Under the pieces are notes generated by a model. It worked only from the letters and a program-made list of their open reading frames with translations, did not search any database and was not told the DNA's origin. From Dehalococcoidia bacterium (lineage in GTDB: Bacteria > Chloroflexota > Dehalococcoidia > Lucifugimonadales > Lucifugimonadaceae), in NCBI GenBank assembly GCA_002723375.1, contig PBNX01000020.1:1-45382 (forward strand): a stretch of DNA of 45,382 nucleotides, in the 5' to 3' direction. Positions 21,030-45,162 of the stretch are shown here, one piece after another. Made by a program: the position numbers and the translations under genes. Each line of letters opens with the position of its first letter. Position 1 is the first letter of the stretch.

Positions 21030-21923
21030 TTGAATTCAAGTAAAAATAACTGGATTAAATACAGTGTTGTAGTGTCTGAAGAATTTGTAGAGCCTGTTGT
21101 CCAAATGTTTTCAAGATTTTTATATGGTAACGTGATTATTGAAAAAGAAGGGGATCCTGAAGATGGAATTATTAATGAGAGCATAGTTTCAGGATATATA
21201 CCTAAAAATAAAAATTCTGAAGAATTAGAAAAGAACTTAAATTCAGGTCTATCCCTATTTAGTGGAGTTTTTGATTTATCGGATCTTAAAATTACTGAAA
21301 TCAGCTCAGAAATTTGGGAAAAACAAAAATTCGATCCAATAATAATAGAAGATGTAGCAATACTTCCTTTCAAAGACCAAATAAATAATTTTAAAGATTA
21401 TATTTGGGTGATTATAGAGCCGTCTATGGCTTTTGGAACTGGGCATCATCCTACTACAAAAATGTGCATATCTTTAATAAAAAAATATTTAGTTAAAGAT
21501 AAAGAAATTATTGACTTGGGGTGTGGGTCTGGAATACTTGGATTAGTTGCATTGAAAATTGGAGCAAAAAGTTGCTTTAGTATAGACGTAGAAGAAGAGT
21601 CAGTGCGAGCATCAATTAAAAATGCTAATGATTCTGATTTATCTAATAAAATTAGGATAGAAAAACAAGATTTATTAAAAAGTATAGATATTGATTTTAA
21701 TCCAGATTTAGTAATAGCGAATCTAAATTCATTTTTGTTTAGAGACGGCCTAATTAATATAAGTGATATTGTTTTACCTGAAAAAAAAATTATAGCTTCA
21801 GGCATTCTAATTGAAAATTTAGATGAGATAGAATCAATATTTGATTCTTATAATTTTAAAATTATTGAGCGTTGTAAATCAGGAGATTGGGCTGCAATCG
21901 TTGCTCAAAAAAAAGATGCATAG
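21030..21923 (+). CDS. prmA: Ribosomal protein L11 methyltransferase
   Basis: PSMAFGTGHHPTTKMCISLIKKYLVKDKEIIDLGCGSGILGLVALKIGAKSCFSIDVEEESVRASIKNA...DLVIANL; TTG start. Confidence 0.94.
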   Translation: MNSSKNNWIKYSVVVSEEFVEPVVQMFSRFLYGNVIIEKEGDPEDGIINESIVSGYIPKNKNSEELEKNLNSGLSLFSGVFDLSDLKITEISSEIWEKQKFDPIIIEDVAILPFKDQINNFKDYIWVIIEPSMAFGTGHHPTTKMCISLIKKYLVKDKEIIDLGCGSGILGLVALKIGAKSCFSIDVEEESVRASIKNANDSDLSNKIRIEKQDLLKSIDIDFNPDLVIANLNSFLFRDGLINISDIVLPEKKIIASGILIENLDEIESIFDSYNFKIIERCKSGDWAAIVAQKKDA

Positions 21924-39040: not shown

Positions 39041-40135
39041 ATGAAAGTTGCGATAGTTTCGCCATATGATATATCTAAAACTGGTGGTGTAACCAATCAT
39101 GTTATTAATTTAGCCAAAGAACTAACTTATCAAGGAAATAAAGTTTCAATTATTGCACCCTCTTCAAATAAATTATTTAGAATTAAAAATATTAATTTTT
39201 TAAATGCTGGAAATCCAACTATAGTTAATTTTGGTTCAACAAAAGCGTCTATTTCTGTAAATTTTATCTCAATAATTAAAGTAAGAAATTTTATTAAAAA
39301 AAATTCCTTTGATTTAATGCATATTCATGAACCCCTAGTTCCCTTTGTATCATTATTTTCGTTAATTTTTTCAAAATCTCCGGTTGTATTAACTTTTCAC
39401 GCGACATTTAACTCAAGTTGGAAATTTAAATTTTGGGGTTTTTTATTCCGAGATTGGATAATAAGCTCTTTATCAAAAATTTGTGTTTCCAAGACAGCTG
39501 CTTTAACTTTAAAAAATTATGGATATGAATTCCCTTATGAACTAATTCCAAACGGAGTGGATTTAGAAAGATTTAATCATAATATAAACAAAGATCATAA
39601 AAAACGAAAAATATTATTTGTTGGTAGGAATGAAGATCGTAAAGGGATAAAAATACTTATTGAGGCTTTCAAGATTATTAACAAAAAATATAGCACTGTA
39701 GAATTAAATTTGGTCGGGGAAGGAGTTTCTCTTTTATCAAACAAGTATAAAAATATCCCTAATTGTAAATTTTATGATCATATGGAAGGTCAAGATTTGG
39801 TCGATATGTACCATAGCTCTCAGATTTTTTGCTCTCCTGCTCTTGAAAATGAAAGTTTTGGAATAGTACTTTTAGAAGCTATGGCTTCAGGATTGGCTGT
39901 TGTGGCTTCAGATATTGATGGTTATAGAGGTATAGTCAATAATTATGAGAATGGCATTCTTTTCAAAAATGGAGACGCTAGAAGTCTTTCAGGTGCTCTT
40001 ATTGAACTAATTGACAACAGAGAAATGATAAATAAGTTATCATTAAATGGGATTAATTTTTCAAAAAAATATTCTTGGCGAGAAGTTTCTAGAAATATAG
40101 TTTTTAATTATGAAAAGAGTTTAAAAATTGGCTGA
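39041..40135 (+). CDS. Glycosyltransferase family 4 (PimA-like)
   Basis: MKVAIVSPYDISKTGGVTNHVINLAKEL...MHIHEPLVPFVSL...LIPNGVDLERFN...LFVGRNEDRKGIKILIEAFKII...ENESFGIVLLEAMASGLAVVASDIDGYRGI. Confidence 0.9.
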   Translation: MKVAIVSPYDISKTGGVTNHVINLAKELTYQGNKVSIIAPSSNKLFRIKNINFLNAGNPTIVNFGSTKASISVNFISIIKVRNFIKKNSFDLMHIHEPLVPFVSLFSLIFSKSPVVLTFHATFNSSWKFKFWGFLFRDWIISSLSKICVSKTAALTLKNYGYEFPYELIPNGVDLERFNHNINKDHKKRKILFVGRNEDRKGIKILIEAFKIINKKYSTVELNLVGEGVSLLSNKYKNIPNCKFYDHMEGQDLVDMYHSSQIFCSPALENESFGIVLLEAMASGLAVVASDIDGYRGIVNNYENGILFKNGDARSLSGALIELIDNREMINKLSLNGINFSKKYSWREVSRNIVFNYEKSLKIG

Positions 40136-40727
40136 TTATTTTGAAAGATCTAGAGATAATTTAAGGTCAATGGCTGAAGGCGTGATAATTGACCCTGTTG
40201 TTAATATTCTTGTGAGACTTAGATGCACACCGAATTTTGTTACTATACTAGGATTTTTTACAGTTTTTGTTGCAACTTTTTTTGCTGCTCAAGGGAATTT
40301 TAGATTATCCGGAATGCTTGTTATGCTGTCCGGATTAATGGATGTATATGATGGAGCTCTAGCTAGAAAATTACAAAAAGATTCTGATAAAGGTGCTTTT
40401 TTAGATTCAACGCTAGATAGATTAGGCGAAGCAGTAATTTTAATTGGAGTTATTTATTATTATTCTTCAAAAAATGAAGAGATTATTGTACTTATGACAA
40501 GTATATCAATCGTTTTTTCATTAATGATAAGTTATTTAAGGGCAAGAATAGAAGGGTTGGGTTATAATTCAAAAAGTGGCATGTTCACAAGACCTGAGAG
40601 GATATTAATTGTTGGGCTTGGATTAATATTTTTTAGCCCAATAATAATGATATACGTTTTAACTTTAGCTGTTTCAGTAGGGCTAGTTCATAGATTTTTC
40701 TTGTTTTGGAAACTTCTGAGGAAATAG
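40128..40727 (+). CDS. CDP-alcohol phosphatidyltransferase family protein (PgsA-like)
   Basis: Motif DVYDGALARKLQKDSDKGAFLDSTLDR matches D-x2-DG-x2-AR-x8-G-x3-D-x3-D. Confidence 0.92.
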   Translation: MADYFERSRDNLRSMAEGVIIDPVVNILVRLRCTPNFVTILGFFTVFVATFFAAQGNFRLSGMLVMLSGLMDVYDGALARKLQKDSDKGAFLDSTLDRLGEAVILIGVIYYYSSKNEEIIVLMTSISIVFSLMISYLRARIEGLGYNSKSGMFTRPERILIVGLGLIFFSPIIMIYVLTLAVSVGLVHRFFLFWKLLRK

Positions 40728-40728
40728 A

Positions 40729-41980
40729 ATGAAAAAAAAAATATTTTTTTCTAATTAAATTTCATTATTTATTTATTTTATTATTAGCATTTACTATTAA
40801 TGCTAGTTATTTAAGCGCAGACCAAAGCATAGTGTTAAATGATTCAGCAAAATCTTTTATTCCTAAAGGGATTGAATTTAGTATTGATTTGTTAAGTAAA
40901 GAAAGCATCGATGATATTCAAATTAAATTCAAAGTTGATGGAAGAAAATCTTATCAGTATGAATATTTAAATTTGGATAATTTTCTAGAAAATGAATCTT
41001 TAAAATATTTTTTTTCAACAGAACGTTCATCTAGTTATATTCCGCCTGGAAGTAAATTAACTTATTTCTTTGAAATATTTTTTAAGGATGGAACCTCACA
41101 TGTTACTGAAAAAAAAGAACATATATTTTTAGATTCAAGGTTTGAGTGGGAAAAGGTAGAAGGAGAAATAGTAACAATTTATTATCATGGGCCAGTTTCT
41201 AGAAGAGCAAAAAAGATGCTTGAAGCATGCGAAGACTCTGTATATAAAATTTCAGACTTATTAGGTGTAGAAAAAAACGAAAATATATCAGTTATGATGT
41301 ACAACAATTATTCTGAAATGTTCGATGTTGTTGTAAAAAAGAGTGAAACTCAAGCAAATTCATTAATCACTGAAGGGCAAGCATTTGCAACAGAGAATGT
41401 TGTGTTAGTTGATGGGGGTTCTGGATCCGCATTAGGTGTAGCCACTCACGAAATTACTCATATTATAGTTGCAAGGGCTACCAAGTCTTCATATTTAGGG
41501 GTACCTTTATGGCTTAATGAAGGATTAGCTGAATTTGGAAATATAGAACAAGGCCAAGGATACGATAGATATTTAGAATGGGCTATTGATACAGGAAGGT
41601 TATTTCCATTTAGCTCATTAAATAGATTTCCAGGTAACCCCAATTTAACTTTAGTTGCTTACGGACAGTCAAAGTCTTTTGTTGAATTTTTAATTAATAA
41701 TTTTCCTGAAGGCTCCATGATTAAGTTAATGAAAGAAATTTCTAACAAGAAATCAATAGAAGATAGCTTTATTTCTTCTTTTGGGGTTTCTTTAGATGAT
41801 CTTGAAATTCAATGGAAAAAAGATCTTGGAATAATCGATAGAAAAAATGAAACTTCAACTTCTTCAGAATTAAATAATGGGGCATTGGGAAGTTGCAATG
41901 GTGGCTCAATGGGGTTCGAACTTAGTAGTATAATACTTCTTTTACTTGCTTATTTCGTAAAGAAAAAAGTAAATAATTAA
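40729..41980 (+). CDS. Secreted gluzincin-type (peptidase MA-like) metalloprotease; start region interrupted by an apparent homopolymer frameshift
   Basis: THEITHIIVARATKSSYLGVPLWLNEGLAEF (HExxH plus downstream E). GAGGA Shine-Dalgarno and ATG at 40729; the signal-peptide frame (YFFLIKFHYLFILLLAFTINASYLSA) is +1 after A10. ORF track start at 40832 is an internal GTG. Confidence 0.75.
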
Positions 41981-43469: not shown

Positions 43470-43820
43470 ATGATAAAAATAGAAGCAGTAATAAGACCTG
43501 AAATGGCAAGTTCAATTGGCGAGCTTCTTGAGGAAGCTGGTGTTGGAGGTTATTACATGACAAATGTAACTGGCAAAGGAAATCAAAAAGGGGTTGAGGT
43601 TTTAACTGGTAGGGGGACTTCTGCTATAACTAGAGCAGCTATTCCTAAAACTTTGATTACTACAGTAGTCTCAGACGAACTTAAGGATAAGGTAGTAAAT
43701 ATATTAATTAGTGGCGCCAAATCTGGAGAAGGATCTATTGGTGATGGTAAAATTTTTATATCCAAAATTGAGGAAGCAGTAAGAATAAGAACAAATGAAA
43801 AGGGCAAAAAGGCTTTATAG
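43470..43820 (+). CDS. glnK: P-II family nitrogen regulatory protein
   Basis: MIKIEAVIRPEMASSIGELLEEAGVGGYYMTNVTGKGNQKG...SGEGSIGDGKIFISKIEEAVRIRT; directly downstream of amt. Confidence 0.92.
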   Translation: MIKIEAVIRPEMASSIGELLEEAGVGGYYMTNVTGKGNQKGVEVLTGRGTSAITRAAIPKTLITTVVSDELKDKVVNILISGAKSGEGSIGDGKIFISKIEEAVRIRTNEKGKKAL

Positions 43821-43836
43821 AAAATAATATAATTTT

Positions 43837-43869
43837 AAAGGAGCGGTTGAAGGCCGCTCCTTTTTTTTT
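43837..43869 (+). terminator. Rho-independent terminator after glnK
   Basis: AAAGGAGCGG-TTGAAGG-CCGCTCCTTT followed by a T-run. Confidence 0.93.
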
Positions 43870-44112: not shown

Positions 44113-45162
44113 CTATAATTTTCCAATTAAGTGTTGGTAATTGTTTTCTAATACTCGCTTATCTTTTTTTATTCCTAATAACATTTTTATTATACTTTTA
44201 ATTATATTAACTTTAGATGTATTTGTTTGACTTAAATTTAATTCAGTGTAAGGAATTTTTAGGATATCAATTTTCTCTAAATTATATTTTTCAGAAATAT
44301 GATAACTGATTGGATTTTTAAGTCCTAAATTATTTTTATTTAAATTTCTATTTAATGAATATATGAATTTAGACCCCATGCCATGAAGAGTTTCTATGTA
44401 CTCTGATACTTGTTCAGATGTCATTTCTTGAAATGAGCATATATTTATAGCCCCATCTATAGTTCCTTTATAATTGTTAAATTCTGTATTAGGAATTAAT
44501 AGAAAATCACAATCTTCAATAGATTCTGATTCGTAATTAAACAGCTTTACTTTTTTGTTTGGAAAAGCTTCTGAAAGAAATAAATAAGAAAATATTAATG
44601 TGTTTGGTAAATCTGAAATTATATATTTTGTATTTGGAAAAATAGTACAAAAGCAATGTGCAAAACCTCCCCAGCCTGCTCCGATTTCACATATAACAGA
44701 TTTTTTTTCTTTATTATTAGCGTCAATGGCATTAGATTTTTGTAGAGCAATCATGCACTCATAAAATTTCAGTGTATCTTTATTTATAAATTTATCTTCA
44801 ATGTTAAATCCAAAGCCCCCTAATATTTCTGGCTCAGAAACTAATAAGTCTAAGTCTTTGTCTATTTTTTGGGATTCAGATCTAAGTAACTTGAGTTTTT
44901 GTAAAAATTGACCCGACCTAAATTCATGATGATTTCTATATGGGTAAGGAATTTCTCCAGTTATATGGTAACAATGGCTTCTTAAGTCATTAATAATTAA
45001 TGGAGATGAATCAAAAATATACTCAAATCCAGATACTTCTTCAGCCCAATATTTACTTATAGATGACTTCTTGGCGTAGACAAGATCTTTAAAAAATGGA
45101 AGCACTCTTAAGTAGTTTTCATACACCGGAGTATTCTTATTTGATTTGTCTAGGGGTATCAT
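44113..45162 (-). CDS. Putative sugar O-methyltransferase
   Basis: FEYIFDSSPLIINDLRSHCYHITGEIPYPYRNHHEFRSG...VICEIGAGWGGFAHCFCTIFPNTKYIISDLPNTLIFSYLFLSEAFP. Confidence 0.75.
   Translation of the reverse strand: MIPLDKSNKNTPVYENYLRVLPFFKDLVYAKKSSISKYWAEEVSGFEYIFDSSPLIINDLRSHCYHITGEIPYPYRNHHEFRSGQFLQKLKLLRSESQKIDKDLDLLVSEPEILGGFGFNIEDKFINKDTLKFYECMIALQKSNAIDANNKEKKSVICEIGAGWGGFAHCFCTIFPNTKYIISDLPNTLIFSYLFLSEAFPNKKVKLFNYESESIEDCDFLLIPNTEFNNYKGTIDGAINICSFQEMTSEQVSEYIETLHGMGSKFIYSLNRNLNKNNLGLKNPISYHISEKYNLEKIDILKIPYTELNLSQTNTSKVNIIKSIIKMLLGIKKDKRVLENNYQHLIGKL

Follow-up and report, generated by a model that had tools for sequence, protein, structure and literature searches.

Why would a gene for an apparently secreted protease carry its start codon in one reading frame and its signal peptide in another? 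The question arises near the end of the window, a 45,382-nucleotide stretch of DNA that constitutes contig C20 of its genome (G000, an 855-kb draft with a stated completeness of 59%). On the forward strand, a pgsA-like gene encoding a CDP-alcohol phosphatidyltransferase (40128..40727; profile match to PF01066) lies directly upstream of the protease. The preliminary description had placed the protease start right after the stop of this gene, and the local layout agrees: the pgsA-like frame ends at 40727, its final codons contain GAGGA, which resembles a ribosome-binding site, and GAGGAAATAGA sits directly before an ATG at 40729..40731. This ATG is followed by a run of ten A's (A10, 40732..40741), then by TA, and then by seven T's (T7, 40744..40750). 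Translation of the printed sequence from this ATG gives MKKKIFFSN and a stop, a nine-residue product, exactly as had been described. The protease frame, also on the forward strand, is open from 40733 to 41980. As the description further stated, it offers no ATG, GTG, or TTG before the GTG at 40832..40834, which is the sole in-frame start available to an automatic gene caller.

The product of the open frame belongs to a recognizable family. A profile search matched it to Peptidase_MA_2 (PF13485) at 89.2 bits, above the gathering cut-off of 32.4 (E = 4.1e-25), and both the HExxH zinc motif and the glutamate expected downstream of it are present, as HEITH and NEGLAE, in the translation and in relatives. 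The frame opens with a signal-peptide coding stretch, KKKYFFLIKFHYLFILLLAFTINASYLSADQ (40733..40825), whose hydropathy peaks at 2.17, and the translation ends in a hydrophobic segment, in agreement with the C-terminal membrane anchor proposed earlier. Judged by these features and by its relatives, the gene at 40729-41980 is predicted to encode an ordinary secreted metalloprotease of the Peptidase_MA_2 type, complete with signal peptide, in a Dehalococcoidia (Chloroflexota) genome that is AT-rich and streamlined.

Which start is the real one can be read from the genus. Among a set of 10 genomes, six contain the protease gene, the present one included, which leaves five relatives for comparison. 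Two of these are the public Dehalococcoidia/Chloroflexi metagenome-assembled genomes G002 (JAAZYI010000025.1; 86% identical) and G008 (PBLC01000008.1; 81-82% identical). The protease gene follows pgsA closely on the 3' side in all five (for G006 this is inferred from the upstream end), and in all five it begins with an ATG, at the same place as the ATG at 40729, in frame with a signal peptide. The N-termini read MKKIYYFLFKVHFLFIFLLVFIINPNYLSADQ in G002, MRKSNYLFIFLIVFFVNINYLSADQ in G008, MKNLIKTFFLIFIFFFSISGNKYIYADQ in G001, with G004 almost identical, and MKILKTLLLICFFTLSFRSDIVLADK in G006; in the two nearest relatives the signal peptide ends in YLSADQ. The distance from the ATG to a shared CTA codon is 21 nt in G002 versus 22 nt in the window. 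The conserved start and signal peptide, together with this difference in spacing, indicate that the window has one surplus base. Thus, the ancestral protease start is the ATG at 40729, the signal peptide is that of the protease, and the printed sequence is one base away from a working gene, all of which the preliminary description had anticipated. For the protease frame to be read from this ATG, the A10 run has one base too many. The comparison with G002 does not separate this run from the T7 run at 40744..40750, and the extra base could equally sit there, a refinement of the preliminary description.

The same comparison bears on the opposite reading, in which the protease starts at the GTG at 40832 as a cytoplasmic protein and the signal peptide upstream is a chance reading. 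This start has in its favor that it is the only in-frame ATG, GTG, or TTG of the printed sequence. At that codon, however, G002 has ATC and G008 has GTT, and the relatives encode their signal peptide upstream of it. The upstream stretch also evolves as a protein would: over its 30 codons, comparison with G002 gives dN = 0.142 and dS = 0.559, a dN/dS of about 0.25. We reject the GTG as the start and regard a cytoplasmic protein as wholly improbable. For the entire protease, dN is 0.078 and dS is 0.693 between the window and G002, and dN/dS for 41 other window genes ranges from 0.011 to 0.266. By these substitution rates, the protease frame is under normal purifying selection, with no sign of decay. 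Because the frame is open and constrained in this way, an old pseudogene is ruled out.

Could the surplus base belong to a switch? The preliminary description had raised slippage or phase variation, and the A run invites comparison with inlA of Listeria monocytogenes (Orsi et al., PMC2831843). There, a frameshift in a 5' poly-A tract leaves an 8-residue peptide, and tract variation is about 1000-fold above average. As in inlA, the run in the window lies just past the start codon, a stop follows after only a few residues (nine remain here), and the product, with its signal peptide and C-terminal anchor, is of the surface or secreted kind. This arrangement would suit a surface protease turned on and off by a hypermutable tract, the mechanism proposed for inlA. 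Unlike inlA, the long tract is absent from related species, and a single genome represents the species here. The A run after the protease ATG is A7, A3, or A5 in the four nearest relatives (G002, G008, G001, and G004) versus A10 in the window, and none of the five relatives has A8 or longer after the start. The proposed comparison with related genomes thus upheld a conserved working frame and not a conserved long tract, and a tract this short in the relatives is therefore not a conserved switch. We searched collections with one genome per species, the 10-genome genus set, and viral contigs (by pattern), and found no second sequence of the same species.

In the window, which has a GC content of 33%, A/T runs of at least 10 number 1 against 3.0 expected from first-order Markov shuffles, and runs of at least 9 number 4 against 7.6. 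This again speaks against a switch, as runs of at least 10 are not enriched over the shuffles. Length alone does not make an A run remarkable in this window; what chance does not explain is that a conserved signal peptide is encoded in the alternative frame. The genome as a whole contains 45 A/T runs of at least 9, two of them of length ten, and the second A10 falls within a frame of 304 codons that is intact. One nine-base A/T run of the window, at 43861-43869, falls between a gene that ends at 43820 and a minus-strand gene that ends at 44113, with no intact frame. In the relative G002, an A12 on the coding strand (G002:C10 53724-53735) lies within an apparently intact 180-codon frame.

Further evidence comes from other genes of the same genome. 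We compared the window and contigs C13 and C7, about 157 kb in all, with the matching contigs of G002 and G008; the genome-wide survey covered these three contigs and the stretches around runs of A9 or longer. Besides the protease locus, no frameshift was found among the window genes relative to G002 and G008, which rules out a window riddled with sequencing indels. Pairs of overlapping ORFs near 21781 and 30311 had looked like split genes and show the same arrangement in the relatives. Three more apparent splits on C13 and C7 proved to be noncoding extensions of stop-to-stop frames; from their translations, we take two of these to be upstream stretches, one SufB-like and one dehydrogenase-like, and the third, at C7:44826, to resemble a structural RNA. 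The approximately 157 kb yielded just two further true frameshifts, each located in a run of nine A's that has one A too many. The first splits cysS, the gene for cysteinyl-tRNA synthetase, on the minus strand at G000:C13:12901-12909 (L061 532-1897). Both halves match TIGR00435, the relatives have an intact 455-codon frame, and the genome yielded no other copy of cysS. The other splits rex, which encodes a redox-sensing repressor, also on the minus strand, at G000:C7:36086-36094 (L049 1171-1861); both halves match Rex models, and the gene is whole in the relatives. At both split points, the run in the relatives is A8, is interrupted, or is shorter. None of the 81 A/T runs of eight in the compared sequence sits at a frameshift, although C13 and C7 were picked for holding split genes, which biases the rate by run length.

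Lesions of one extra A in protease, cysS, and rex make a protease-specific switch unnecessary and point to a general process of homopolymer indels. Switching would moreover be senseless for cysS. Together with the short runs in the relatives, this tells against the switch suggested in the preliminary description, and we now hold phase variation to be very unlikely.

The shared lesion is at the same time what favors another possibility, an A10 frameshift fixed in the species, with RNA polymerase slippage at the A run yielding the protein, as reported in Buchnera and Blochmannia. In Blochmannia vafer, eight genes, including dnaX and dnaG, have poly-A/T frameshifts for which rescue by slippage was proposed; the genome paper cites an earlier study in which 30% of transcripts were full-length (PMC3017870). 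The parallels are clear: an AT-rich reduced genome, and single indels in A runs of at least 9 within otherwise intact, constrained genes, essential ones included. Here, too, the essential gene cysS, and also rex, share the lesion in A9 runs, and the protease frame is still constrained. Against such rescue, the frameshift is not common to the relatives, all five of which are in frame, and the A run is not conserved in them. Rescue would also have to proceed in the −1 (or +2) direction, whereas homopolymer indels in transcripts are mostly insertions. In Buchnera transcripts, homopolymers accounted for 151 of 157 insertions but only 16 of 57 deletions, and no restored frame was seen (PMC5574713). 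The present case further differs from these endosymbionts in its −1 direction, in being known from DNA sequence alone, and in its lineage, which record titles and literature indicate is free-living and known solely from draft metagenome assemblies. We consider slippage rescue of the protease unlikely. The wider proposition is that RNA polymerase slippage at A runs of at least 9, reported to date in insect endosymbionts, allows a streamlined, free-living lineage of marine Chloroflexota to live with fixed poly-A frameshifts in constrained genes, those for a secreted protease, a redox regulator, and an aminoacyl-tRNA synthetase among them; this is decidedly a long shot.

By far the most probable explanation is a nonprogrammed homopolymer indel, either an assembly or consensus error or a recent or segregating variant. 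The A10 run would have gained one extra A, or the T7 run one extra T, by homopolymer slippage, which could have happened by two routes. First, slippage may have occurred while the consensus was made, during PCR or sequencing, or when a mixed population was assembled. Second, it may have occurred in DNA replication and given rise to a recent or segregating variant. By either route, a working allele would be present in cells, and a single process that adds an A in the longest A runs would have struck three genes unrelated to one another, of which one is essential. It is difficult to believe that a living cell truly carries cysS in two pieces. Homopolymer assembly error is the single most likely option, an artefact having about an even chance of being the cause; a real but unselected variant is a serious, if lesser, candidate. 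A mixed population is also suggested by isolated single N's, which occur in clusters at G000:C7 19795-20126 and 24951-25091, in L032 at 1603-1745, and in G004 (L075), and which were absent from the examined stretches of G002, G008, and G001. We infer that these scattered N's are masked strain polymorphism in a consensus over such a population.

The comparison with known assembly errors is close in some respects and not in others. As with the homopolymer indels that enter draft genomes and metagenome assemblies by error, only the longest A runs are affected, irrespective of gene function. Typical long-read error differs, since it would also affect shorter runs, and this was not seen. Two further observations weigh against the favored explanation. 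Most runs of A9 or longer lie in intact frames (34 of the 45, by an automatic test that counted the split cysS and rex in), so the process is not indiscriminate, and all three lesions add one A, a uniformity of direction that a purely random process would give one time in four.

For annotation, the consequence is that the protease should be described as a signal-peptide protein that starts at 40729. Gene callers that use the GTG, or that split cysS and rex, are misled by A runs of at least 9 in this draft genome. If the lesions were instead real and fixed, frameshifts tolerated through slippage would extend from endosymbionts to free-living ocean bacteria. Frame changes of another sort appear in one relative: the region G008:C6 41181-43294 has several of them relative to intact ORFs at C13 51945-54050 of the genome studied here and may hold decayed G008 genes.
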